Source: Spiroplasma chrysopicola DF-1
GTDB taxonomy: Bacteria; Bacillota_I; Bacilli_A; Mycoplasmatales; Mycoplasmataceae
Direction: 5' to 3'
NCBI RefSeq assembly: GCF_000400935.1
Contig: NC_021280.1
Coordinates: forward strand, 62,001-126,000
DNA: 64,000 nucleotides
Each line of letters starts with the position of its first letter. Within the stretch, counting starts at the first letter, position 1. Shown here piece by piece: positions 14,715 through 28,692 of this stretch. The notes beneath the pieces are model-generated. The model was not told the origin of the DNA and did no database searches. It saw only the letters and a list, made by a program, of their open reading frames with translations. The position numbers and the translations under genes are program-made.

Positions 14715-15737
14715 ATGGTAGAAAATATTACTTGAAACTGAGAACAAACGGTTTATGAAGACTTATCAAACACAATGGGGGATAATGCCAACCAAGATTT
14801 AAAGGAACTAAATAGTAAAGTTAATAAGTTGAGAATTAAAAATAGAACATTTTCTCTTGTCATTGTCGCATTAGGAATGCAAGTTGTAATTACTGGTTTT
14901 GTATTGTACTTTTTGGTACCTAATATTTTAAAAAATGAATGGTGAGTCTGACCTATTATTGGATATTTTGTATTAGTTACCGTACCATTTATATATTTGA
15001 TAGTACAAAATTTTATAATAAACAAACAAATTCGTAAACTGGATTTTATTTTAGGACCAGCCATGAAACAAACAAAAGAAATAGATTATGAAAAATTATA
15101 TCGTAAAGCATTGGAAGAAATGACTAATAATAAATATCATTTAATTGGTCTTTCCCAAAAGTTTCATATTCAATCAACTATTGATTTACCAAAAAATAGT
15201 TATGCAAGTAATCATAATGTTTTAAACATATATGAAAAAGACACAGATTTTATTTATTCTTTAGGTACTATTAGTCTTGGTCAGACCGTTAAAAACATTG
15301 TTGAATATTCCCCGGTAACTTATTTTAATGTTAAGGTAAAAAAATCTTATGATTATTATGGTTCAATTATTTTAAAAAATACAGAATATAAAAATTTAAT
15401 AAATGATAACACAGTGTTAGAATCAAATAAATTTGAAGAATTATTTATAGTTAATTCAAGTAATCAAATTGGGGTTCGAAAACTATTAACGCCAAAAGTA
15501 ATTAGTAATTTAGTTAAACAAATTAATCGCAAAAACTTACCAGTAATTGGGGTAAAAGATGATGTTATTACGTTTGCTTTTGACCAAAAGGATTCGGAAT
15601 ATAACCAAAATAAAATTTTAGATGACAGTGAAATTGAGAAAGACAATTTTTATAAATCATTATGTCAAAAAATTACTAAAGATATTAATTCATTCCTTGA
15701 AGCCCTTTATTGAGTTGATGTATTAGGGTTAAAATAA
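14715..15737 (+). CDS. DUF3137-like membrane protein, first copy
   Basis: A 340-residue protein of unknown function, visible as one frame only with TGA as Trp. Two transmembrane helices (about residues 41-65 and 77-100) form a hairpin near the N-terminus. A large soluble domain follows with segments such as LYRKALEEM, LESNKFEELFIV and NQIGVRKLLTPKVISNL. The motif ..LxPxxxxxL.. after a 'FE.LF.V' strand is characteristic of DUF3137 proteins, as I recall them. The start ATG 14715 is behind GAGAGAAAGG. The next gene encodes a clear paralogue in the same operon; the two share KLLTPKV, the FEKL/FEEL segment and the overall layout. Confidence 0.75.
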
Positions 15738-15763: not shown

Positions 15764-16768
15764 ATGAGTTTAAATAATAATAACTGACAAGAACAAGTCC
15801 AAACTGATATTAAAAAAATCATCAACCAGTATGATCCAGCGAAACTTGCGAATATCCAAAAAATTGCGAAAAAGAAAAAAATGGGAACCTTAATGTTTAT
15901 TTTTTCCTTGTTGGCAACAATTGGGTTTGGGATTGGAATTTATATGACATTGGAAAGCTCAATAGTATTAATAGTCATGATTATTTGCTTTTTAATTTGT
16001 GCAGGTTTTTTAATATGAGCGCTAACAATTTTTGGGCAGTATCGAAAAGTTGTTAGATGAATTAGCGAAGTAATGGGACAAGTTAACTATAAAGAATATT
16101 ATCATGCTGCGTTACAAGAAAATAGTAATCAAGATTTGCAATTAATTGATTTAACCCAAAGTTTTAAAACATCACCTTTTAAATTTTTACCTAGTGGTAA
16201 AACAAAAGTTGATAATGTTTTAATCATTTTTTCTGAACAGCAACAAAATTATTATTGCTATGGGACAATTACTCAACAAATTAAACAAACAACTCGTGAT
16301 TCAAAAGGGCGAACAACGACACATTACTATTATTATCGTTTCCCTTTTTTAACAGCGCAATTAAATCGTGATTTAGAAGTTAATGCAGTAATTCAACGCT
16401 CAAAAGGGATTTTAAAAATCTTTCAAGGGGATAATACAACATTAGAATCAGATCAATTTGAAAAACTTTATGCTGTAAATGCTAATAATCAAATTACAAT
16501 TCGGAAATTATTAACCCCAAAAGTAATGGTTAATTTAATTGATAATGCTGATCGAGGTGTTCCAAAAGTAGCAATTAACAATAATTTACTAACTTTGAGT
16601 TTTAGTTCTTTTTCGGTTAGCGGTTGATCAGATCCAAAAGGAATGATTTGAGGGGATATTTTTAATGCCCCAAATACAATTACTGAAGATATTTGCAAAG
16701 AAATTACAACAAATTTAAATGAGTTTTTTCCACGCTTAGATTGATTAAAAGTCTATGATTTAATTTAA
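15764..16768 (+). CDS. DUF3137-like membrane protein, second copy
   Basis: Paralogue of the preceding gene, 334 residues, starting behind AGGAGGAAAC. It has the same plan: a short cytosolic N-terminus, two transmembrane helices (about residues 45-63 and 67-88), then a soluble domain with VNYKEYYHAALQEN, LESDQFEKLYAVNANNQI and RKLLTPKVMVNL. Unlike the first copy it has a Tyr-rich loop (TTHYYYYRF). Function is unknown; the tandem duplication next to lemA suggests that both act with LemA at the membrane. It ends 2 bases before the end of the convergent gene at 16770-17252. Confidence 0.75.
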
Positions 16769-23842: not shown

Positions 23843-26581
23843 ATGAAAAAAATAAGAATAGAAAATCTCCGTCAAAAAGGGGTTTTAGAACGATTTTTAT
23901 ATATTAACGATGTTGTACAAGCGGGAGAACCGATTGCCTTAATTTTAGTTAATAACAAGGAAGAAATTATTGTCAATGCACCAGATGATGGTCTTGTTAT
24001 TAAACCAATTAAAATTGGTAGCAAAGTTAAAAATAACAGTGTTATTGCCCACCTCTTAACAAATGAAAAAGAAATTACAAAATATCATAATAAACTTAAT
24101 AAAAAAACTGATCTTGAAGTTGACTTTTCGCCTTCTGATAAAGGCGAATTTGGAACAAAATGAGCTGATGTTGAAGAAGATAATTATTCAGGGACAAGTT
24201 TTGTTTCAACAACAGTAGCCCCAGCCCAAACTTTACCATTAACAAGCTTATTACAAACACCTAACCTTAGCCAACACCAATCTCCAAACTACCAGTCATT
24301 ATTAGGCAAAGTGCAAGAATCACGCCCCGAAGCTCAATTAGAACAAAAGAGTGAAGAAACCAAATCAATTTTTAATGCGTCTTTTGCGCCATTAAAAACA
24401 AGCATAGTTGAAAAAGGTCGTTGAGATGAAAAACCATTATCATTTAATAAACCAAGCGAAAAACCCTTGTCATTTAAAGAAGCAAAACTTAGTGGGTCTT
24501 TTTTAAATGAGAAAAATAATAGTGAGGAGTCTACCCAGGTGGAAGATTTAAAAGCAAAAATTAGTCAAGCTTTAGCAGAAAGTAAAAATACTTTACAACA
24601 AGAATTAGCAGAGAAAGAATATGCCAAATATTTAGTTCAAACAACAAAAACTCATGATGAAAAACCAACTAGTGTAATTTTAGCAAGTGGTCAAACGGAA
24701 AATGCCCCAACAAATAATTTCCGGGAATTAGTTAATAAACGTCGTGAGCAATTACATAGTAATAATAATTTTCAGAAATTAAATCTTGAGGCGGATAATA
24801 ATAAAAATGCGATGGACTTTTTAGATGATGAAGGTAAACCAATTATTTTACGTAATATTGTTCAAAATCGTATGAATAATTTAATTAGTGAAAATACTTC
24901 AGGATTACGGGCAGCAAGTGAAGTTAGTGGAACTAGTTTTAGTGACACAAGCGATAGTTATCGAGGAACACGTTCTGAATATGGCATGGCTCCAAGCAAA
25001 AAAGCAAATGATAATGCTGAAAAATATTCATATATTAATGCTGATGGAATTCTTGTTGATGGGGATGAGCCACAACATACTCCACATAAGCAATATAAAA
25101 CATACCGTGATCGCTTATTTGAAAAATTACATAATGATGCTGAACGACAAAAAATTTTAAAAACAAGAAACCAACGCGAATTAATTAAACAAAGAATGGA
25201 AGCAATTGCAGCTGGGGATGTTGAAGTTGATAATGTTTTAGGAGCAACCCATAATTTTAAACGCCCATCATATGAAGAAATGGAAAAACAGTATAAGGTG
25301 TTAGATGATAAATATAATGCTGAACATCGTGGTGTTGACCAAGCAGAAAGTGATAATTATGGGTGAGGAGAACAGATTACTCATAATGAACCAATTAAAC
25401 AATTAGAAAAACCACAAAATAATCCAAAAACAGCGCCAGTAACAGCCCAAAAAGAACCACAACCAGTTTTTCAACAATTCTTGCCTTCCCAAGCAACTGG
25501 GGGCGATAGTAGTATTTTAGCCGAGCTAGCTGTCTTAAAAGAAAAATTAGCGCAACAAGAACAAAATAATCGTCAAAATGAATTATTAAATGAAATTCGT
25601 CATTTAAAAGAAAATAATCAAAATAACAGTAACAATACTTTTGATAAATTAATGCAATATATGATGTTACAACAAATGTTTAAAACAACCCCTAATAGTA
25701 GTGCCGACCCTATTTTAACTGATTTATTAAAAGAAAGTTTCTTAGGAAATAAAACAAACAATAGTCAAGATTTACAAATTAAAAAATTCGATAATATGGC
25801 CCCACAAGGAAACTTATTACACCCAATAAATAATAGTTTAAATATTGTTAATACAAGTAACAATATTATTGAACCGCAAGGACCAGAAAGCCGCGAGGAA
25901 ATTAAAGCCGCAAAATATCCAGCAATTAAATCAATGATTATGACCCAGGCTAGTGTTCCACCATTAACAATTAATACGGAAATTGATATGTCAGCGGTAA
26001 TTGAACAACAACGAAAATTAAAAAATGCTAATGCTAACTCTGGTGTTCGCTTTTCAACAATGAGTTTTATTGTTAAATCAGTATCATTAGCACTAACAGA
26101 ATATCCAAAATTAAATTCCTATTATGATGCTAGAACAAATCAAATTGTTATTAAAAATTCCCATCATATTGGAATTGCAACTGAAACAAGTGAGGGATTA
26201 GTTATTCCTGTCATTAAATTTGCTGAAAAATTAAGTTTAAAACAAATTGCTGTAACATCACAAGAAATTATTGACCGCTTGCGCGAAGGTGAATTATACG
26301 ATTATGAATTACAAGGAAGTACAATTACTGTCGCCAACTATGGAACAGTTGGGGCAGTTACTGCTACGCCAACGATTTTTTATCCTAATTCAGCTGTGGT
26401 CGGAATCGGGCGAGTTGTTCGTAAACCAGTTGTTATTAAAGGTGATAAATTAGTAATTCGCTCAATGATGAATATTTCGTTAACAATTGATCAAAGAATT
26501 ATTGATGCTGCCGAAGCAGGAATATTCTTAACACGATTAAAAGAAATTTTAGAGTCACCAGAATTAATTACTTTATCATAA
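23843..26581 (+). CDS. 912-residue E2 acyltransferase-like fusion protein, catalytic His missing
   Basis: Three parts are seen. Residues 1-75 resemble a biotinyl/lipoyl fold (DVVQAGEPIALILVNNKEEI, then NAPDDGLV), but the usual modified Lys position is Glu41, with a Lys at 39. Residues about 80-690 are hydrophilic, rich in Asn, Gln, Glu and Ser, with coiled-coil-like and poly-Asn stretches; no peripheral-subunit-binding motif is visible. Residues about 690-912 match the catalytic domain of 2-oxo acid dehydrogenase E2 (TEIDMSAVIEQ, GIATETSEGLVIPVI, AVVGIGR). The active-site motif DHRxxDG is DQRIIDA here, with Q884 replacing His. It is therefore probably not a working acyltransferase and may be structural or regulatory. 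No E1 or E3 genes are adjacent. Confidence 0.78.
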
Positions 26582-27391: not shown

Positions 27392-27468
27392 GGCGGTTGT
27401 GGCGAAGTGGTTAACGCACCGGATTGTGGCTCCGGCACTCGTGGGTTCAAGCCCCATCAGCCGCCCCA
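27392..27468 (+). tRNA. tRNA-His (anticodon GTG), CCA encoded
   Basis: The cloverleaf folds fully. The acceptor strands GGCGGTTG and CAGCCGCC give eight pairs, including the extra G-1:C73 pair that is the identity element of tRNA-His. The anticodon stem CCGGA/TCCGG carries the loop TTGTGGC, anticodon GTG. The T-arm is GTGGGTTCAAGCCCCAT. CCA is encoded in the DNA. It has its own promoter and terminator and no tRNA neighbours. Confidence 0.96.
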
Positions 27469-27533: not shown

Positions 27534-28692
27534 TGTAAGGTACCATAGACATTTAAGACCAGTTAGTCTTTTAAAAATTTTAACACAGCTTCAGCAGGTG
27601 TTAAAAGATTTATGCTCTTATGTCGTCGAATATTGTTATAATAATTTAGAAAGATTTTAATTTGTTTTTCAATATCATCAATTTCCTTAAGATATCTTGG
27701 TAAATATTCAAAAAACTTATTTCAGTTACGATGAAATCTTTCAATTTTCCCATTTGACTGTGGGGAACGCACTGGAGTTGTCTGATGAGCAACTCCTTTT
27801 TTATTTACTGCTTTTGTAAATTCACTTTTTCGATGAGCATAATTTGAACGATGATTATATACATATTCAGTTCCATTGTCTGTTCGAATTCTCTTAATGT
27901 TAATGCCAATATTTTTAAATTCAAAATAAGCTTTTTCAAATAGTTTAGCAGCAATATCTTGTGTTTTATGCGCAGAAACATAAGCCACTGCATAACGTGA
28001 TTTTTCATCAATGTAATCAAAAATATACAAATCTTTTTTGTAACCTGTCATATTTTTAGTTAATATTTTAACATCATGTTGAACATGTCCTAATTCGGGC
28101 ATTTCATAACGTTGATATATTTTCTTTATATTTTTACGCTTAGAATAATTATTAAATGTTTTATCTCATTTTATTAATGTTTTAATGTTATGTTTAATTG
28201 GCATATTTTGGTAGGTAAAATAATTTGCTAATGTTAAATTATAAAACTCATATATCCCTGTGCCATATTTTTCTCGGTATGTTTTAATCATCTTAGCAAT
28301 TTTTCTTTTATATATTTTACTATAATGATAATGAATAGTTTTTGGTCGTGTTGAAGTCTTTTTAAATCATTCAAAATCATAAGAATTTAATAAAAATTCT
28401 TTAATTTTATTTGATCATGTATAAAATGTTTGTTTGCCTTTATAAAATAATTTAATTAACTGGTTTAATGAGTGACTTTTTAAATAGTATTTATGGCATA
28501 AATTAAAATAATTTGACAAATGATGATAGATATAATTTGTTTCTTTAGTTGGTTCAACACGCCCATACCACTTTTTAAAACCACGATGTAATTTATATAA
28601 TTCATTTTCAGTAATAATACTTGTTATCATTTTTAATCCTCCTAAATTTATTCTAAAGAATTTAGTGGTCTTAAATGTGTGTGGTTTTTACA
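27534..28692 (-). mobile_element. IS481-like insertion sequence, 1159 bp
   Basis: The element is bounded by imperfect terminal inverted repeats, 27534-27561 and 28666-28692. Both share TGGTCTTAAATGT at the inner side and TACA/TGTA at the outer ends, with a few mismatches and one indel. It starts TGT and ends ACA, as in the IS481 group, and encodes a single transposase on the minus strand. Exact 15-base direct repeats lie immediately outside both ends. The intact frame, intact ends and perfect duplications suggest a recent insertion. Confidence 0.92.
27563..28630 (-). CDS. DDE transposase of the IS481-like element
   Basis: Catalyses transposition of the surrounding element. The 355-residue frame (TGA read as Trp) opens MITSIITENELYKLHRGF, with a helix-turn-helix N-terminal half. 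The integrase-core catalytic triad is visible: Asp in ELGHVQHDVKILTK, Asp in IRTDNGTEYVYN, and Glu in SNGKIERFHRN. The C-terminus LNYYNNIRRHKSINLLTPAE is typical of IS481/IS3-type enzymes. A GGAGGATTAAAA ribosome-binding site precedes the start. The gene spans nearly the whole element, has no premature stop, and should be active. Confidence 0.92.

Follow-up and report, generated by a model that had tools for sequence, protein, structure and literature searches.

E2 subunits such as PdhC/AceF (E2p; PF00198; PDB entry 1b5s) consist of a lipoyl domain, a linker and an acyltransferase core. They carry a catalytic His and Ser, a lipoyl Lys and an E1/E3-binding domain. The core is normally trimeric, and larger particles are possible. 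A non-catalytic homologue with a core domain, E3BP (PDHX; 6h60), belongs to the pyruvate dehydrogenase complex (PDC) and binds E3. Some bacterial E2 cores, for example that of actinobacterial E2p, do not assemble (PMC9681731).

Here we analyze an E2-like protein (E2L) encoded in a 64,000-nucleotide stretch of the Spiroplasma chrysopicola DF-1 genome, referred to as the window. The gene is located at about 85.8-88.6 kb of the complete 1,123,322-bp genome, and its features are listed in Table 1. E2L shares with PdhC/AceF the E2 core fold and the order of lipoyl-like domain, linker and core. Unlike PdhC/AceF, it lacks the catalytic His and Ser, a conserved lipoyl Lys and the E1/E3-binding domain. 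Its linker is much longer, about 600 residues, and contains conserved helices, and the protein occurs independently of PDC. E2L shares with E3BP the homology to E2, the core domain and the lack of catalysis; unlike E3BP, it exists without PDC and has no E3-binding domain. Searches of papers, which do not reach supplementary proteome tables, found no report on E2L.

Table 1. Features of E2L and their coordinates in the window
Feature	Coordinates	Strand	Basis
E2-like protein (E2L), 912 aa ORF, table 4	23843..26581	+	orthologues in 42/42 MreB-positive family genomes
Lipoyl-like (barrel-sandwich) domain without conserved lipoyl Lys, residues 1-74	23843..24064	+	AlphaFold, PF00364 in relatives
Long, largely disordered middle with conserved helices, residues 88-680	24104..25882	+	pLDDT, dN/dS 0.176
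Most conserved middle block, two R-x-[LIV][LIV]-x-x-R-x-x-x-[LIV] helix copies, residues 290-350	24710..24892	+	alignment, dN/dS 0.039, motif test
Third motif copy (RNQRELIKQRMEAIAAG), residues 442-458	25166..25216	+	motif test
Long conserved helix, residues 556-591	25508..25615	+	genus alignment, AlphaFold
E2-type acyltransferase-like core, residues 681-910	25883..26572	+	PF00198, Foldseek, dN/dS
DQR replacing catalytic DHR, residues 883-885	26489..26497	+	orthologue alignment

Domain architecture and catalytic residues

The first-pass annotation assigned the C-terminal domain to the E2 type. Pfam and PDB searches agree: residues 681-910 match 2-oxoacid_dh (PF00198) at 7.9e-64, and the top PDB sequence match is 1b5s. 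The core of the AlphaFold model, which was predicted as a monomer, also matches E2 cores in the PDB by Foldseek, with 1b5s at 1.1e-22 and a best target TM-score of 0.90. E3BP (6h60) is matched as well, at 2.6e-18. The E1/E3-binding motif had been reported missing, and a Pfam search that included the middle indeed found no peripheral-subunit-binding domain.

Re-reading the sequence returned the same ORF, the same coordinates and the same Q884, the residue that places DQRIIDA where DHRxxDG is expected. Among 43 E2L orthologues the catalytic His column contains Q in 42 and R in one, whereas all 34 PdhC sequences have H. His is thus replaced in every orthologue, which answers the suggestion that homologues might retain DHR. 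A sequencing error at Q884 is ruled out by its near invariance. The Ser column, equivalent to Ser558 of A. vinelandii, is occupied by N (22), T (9), M (9), S (1), G (1) or H (1) in E2L; it is S in 32 of 34 PdhC sequences.

The N-terminal domain had been described as a lipoyl-like fold with Glu in place of the modified Lys. The fold is upheld: AlphaFold predicts strands for residues 1-74 with pLDDT about 80, and PF00364 is matched significantly by an E2L orthologue from the Ixodetis-like clade (1.1e-7) and by a third E2-like paralogue (2.8e-7). The Glu is not, since Lys39 of this E2L is located at the lipoyl-Lys offset, 8 residues before Pro47 and near the hairpin tip. What stands is the absence of a conserved Lys. 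Of the 43 orthologues, 35 have Gly in column 39 and only 3 have Lys; judging from the alignment, therefore, the lipoylation site is not conserved.

The middle had been described as about 600 disordered, Asn/Gln/Glu-rich residues. Both properties are confirmed, with pLDDT below 50 for 385 residues and with 9.9% N, 9.3% E and 7.4% Q in residues 89-682. The middle is not featureless, however. The genus alignment shows conserved blocks, and AlphaFold predicts helices at residues 229-267, 291-308, 336-356, 421-456, 477-496 and 556-591. F293, P333, R337 and R343, located in the most conserved block, are invariant across 43 E2L sequences. The motif of this block has 98 matches in 43 E2L middles compared to 0.2 expected from shuffles; these are not independent events, each copy being inherited among orthologues. 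Two or three copies recur inside most E2L proteins. In two genomes of genus g10, E2L has a divergent core and has lost the N-terminal domain, and the helix block is kept. The repeated motif is new relative to the first-pass annotation, as are the link to MreB and the second degenerate paralogue described below.

Distribution, selection and ancestry

E2L is intact and full-length in 14 of 14 genomes of the genus. Five of them lack PDC: four (G003, G006, G007 and G011) have no PdhC, G012 has a broken one, and full-length pdhA is missing in all five. E2L is intact in each of these, which speaks against its being a PDC subunit.

In the family, E2L follows MreB. MreB is present in 42 of 60 genomes, in several copies with E about 1e-120 or better. 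In the other 18, MreB queries find matches of 1e-40 to 1e-61 at best, which probably reflect DnaK-level similarity. E2L was found in exactly the 42 MreB-positive genomes and in none of the 18 MreB-negative ones, 16 of which carry a PdhC sequence (a fragment in one). The MreB-negative genera appear to belong to the Mycoides-Entomoplasmataceae clade, which has lost helical morphology (PMC8025503).

The Ixodetis-like clade, a separate family (f9), shows a similar relationship. Four MreB genes accompany an intact E2L in G307. In G308 only a fragment of MreB is left, along with a stop-containing remnant of E2L, and both genes are missing from G306 and G309. G305, with damaged MreB copies yet an intact E2L, is the sole mismatch of the pattern. 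MreB decay in this clade is step-wise, from the damaged copies of G305 through the fragment of G308 to complete absence in G306 and G309. Fib is found in all tested MreB-positive genomes of the 60-genome family and is absent from G307, which has E2L and MreB; Fib was thus rejected as the correlate of E2L.

Across the order, E2L-level scores are confined to these two Spiroplasma-like families. Elsewhere, MreB-like genes occur in family f11, where they are divergent, and in two fragmented MAGs, in each case without E2L. The f11 genes (G311-G319) encode about 380-397 aa and score about 1e-58 to 1e-61; these genomes are without E2L. Among the named genomes scanned, orthologues were found in S. phoeniceum (two) and S. 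poulsonii only. E2L therefore tracks MreB and is independent of PDC, with the co-loss of E2L and MreB representing perhaps two or three events amid general genome reduction.

The E2L core is under strong purifying selection. Between G000 and G013 its dN/dS is 0.021, compared to 0.022 for the PdhC core, 0.039 for block 290-350 and 0.176 for the E2L middle. For the PDC-less pair G011 and G012 the core value is 0.060. Very close pairs such as G003 and G006 were set aside because they contain too few changes. Core identity between genera (G000 and G027) is 57.5%, not lower than the 50.6% of PdhC.

E2L forms a single clade, with support of 98 in the full tree and 98/96 in the thinned one. The third E2-like paralogue forms its own clade, and one shared duplication for the two has support of only 56/93. 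The genome contains three E2-type genes. Its pdhA, pdhB, pdhC and pdhD genes are located at about 296-301 kb, and its own PdhC has DHRLIDG and ETDKVN. With these about 208 kb away, the first-pass statement that no PDH genes adjoin E2L is correct, and E2L is ruled out as the sole E2 gene of the genome.

The third gene is located outside the window at 290,683-292,431 (L004:5684-7432), between phosphoglucomutase-like and yhaM-like genes and upstream of the PDH operon, and has NEMIIDI in place of the DHR motif. Like E2L, its product has a lipoyl-like domain (without the Lys), a disordered middle and a degenerate E2 core. Unlike E2L, it evolves much faster, has lost the whole DHR motif and has no alignable repeated helix block. 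Full-length profile matches to it are found in nearly all MreB-positive genomes of the family; g10 is an exception. It is decayed in G011 and absent from the Ixodetis-like clade.

A possible scaffold and its alternatives

Both catalytic residues are gone, E2L is under purifying selection where PDC has been lost, and genomes that retain only PDC do not have it. These observations bear out the earlier suggestion that the protein is repurposed. Given the lost catalysis and the lengthened arm with its conserved helices, the protein is most simply read as a multivalent scaffold. Its tie to MreB suggests a role in cell shape, polarity or swimming. We give about an even chance to E2L being a non-catalytic, PDC-independent relative of E2 that acts as a structural scaffold for MreB-based architecture (helix, polarity or swimming).

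In such a scaffold the E2-type core would assemble at least into trimers and possibly into larger particles. The 24- or 60-meric shell raised in the first-pass annotation may be formed, although some bacterial E2 cores stay unassembled. Each subunit would project an arm of about 600 residues, several Arg-containing helices of which could dock clients, and a lipoyl-fold cap would be located at the tip. The assembly would serve cell shape, polarity or swimming. Oligomerization, client binding, the scaffold role and a cytoskeletal or polar location are what we infer for E2L, and an oligomerizing E2 fold with a long arm and repeated short helices would fit such a function.

Two reconstitution studies leave room for an additional component. 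MreB alone confers helicity in a heterologous host (PMC9663586), and the helix itself can therefore form without E2L. MreB together with Fib failed to yield efficient swimming in the same work, indicating that unknown Spiroplasma components are required (PMC9663586), and the tapered pole of spiroplasma is made by unknown proteins (PMC9710875). E2L is a conserved and testable candidate for such components. If it is one of them, it would be the second metabolic enzyme, after the nucleosidase-derived Fib, at the origin of spiroplasma motility. In the Triton-insoluble structure of S. eriocheiris, 16 proteins were identified, the largest of 85.8 kDa (PMC5289999). E2L, which would exceed 100 kDa, is not among them.

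The polar dumbbell at the tapered cell tip is thought to set the swimming direction. It is conceivable, and in our judgment unlikely, that E2L builds or organizes this structure, possibly together with the third paralogue. If so, a metabolic multi-enzyme core would have become a cytoskeletal organizer, comparable to Fib, which is derived from a nucleosidase.

Alternatively, E2L could have no connection with the cytoskeleton and act as a regulator, a scaffold or a hub that binds nucleic acid, its co-loss with MreB reflecting general genome reduction in non-helical lineages. Such lineages, with genomes of 0.8-1.1 Mb, shed many genes together, the Arg-rich conserved helices could bind nucleic acid or membrane, and the genes next to E2L in other genera are not cytoskeletal but encode a TM protein and two families that match nothing in Pfam. 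Coincidental loss would have to account for MreB and E2L also being lost together in the separate Ixodetis-like clade, and for the presence of E2L in every MreB-positive genome of the 60-genome family. We consider this alternative a minor but serious possibility.

An enzyme or CoA-ligand sensor, in which the E2 pocket binds CoA or transfers a different acyl group, Gln standing in for His, seems quite unlikely to us. The pocket is constrained, D883, R885, N832 and glycines being nearly invariant and the Gln almost so. The missing His alone does not prove inactivity, because His375 variants of E. coli E2o stay partly active (Ala 2.1%, Cys 1.0%, Asn 0.5% and Trp 60% activity; PMC5986005). The Ser/Thr position varies freely, however, there is no conserved lipoyl Lys, the E1 partner is missing in five genomes, and the same genomes contain a degenerate paralogue without the whole DHR motif. 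With His, Ser, the lipoyl Lys and an E1 partner all missing together, the classical acyltransferase reaction is improbable.

Very little weight can be given to E2L being a non-catalytic core subunit of PDC like eukaryotic E3BP, which the phyletic pattern contradicts. E3BP does replace E2 core subunits without being catalytic (PMC9681731), and E2L resembles 6h60 structurally. Yet E2L is under purifying selection in PDC-less genomes, is absent from 16 genomes that carry PdhC, and has no E3-binding domain detectable by Pfam. E2L-type genes are not to be read as a sign of PDC in a genome. Finally, loss of the catalytic motif could mark a decaying pdhC duplicate, which the full-length ORF throughout the genus, the low dN/dS of the core and the ancient separate clade refute.

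Gene neighbors

No gene-neighbor link of E2L to mreB or fib was seen in the loci compared. At most loci in genera g4, g8, g9 and g10, a gene downstream of E2L and in the same orientation encodes a protein of about 420 aa from a family that has no Pfam match. Often a co-oriented gene for a 140-aa single-TM protein, likewise without a Pfam match, also lies 3' of E2L in these genera, and a multi-TM protein is located upstream at many of the loci. Examples of the downstream families are L072:4142-5404 and L072:3742-4164. The two downstream families are possible partners of E2L. The neighbors of E2L in the window's genus differ from these. Positions 14715-15737 and 15764-16768 of the window encode tandem membrane-protein paralogues with a common C-terminal stretch, DNT.LES..FE.L..VN..NQI..RKLLTPK. 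A transposase- or integrase-like ORF (27563-28630, 355 aa) is located close downstream of E2L, beside tRNA-His (27393-27468).
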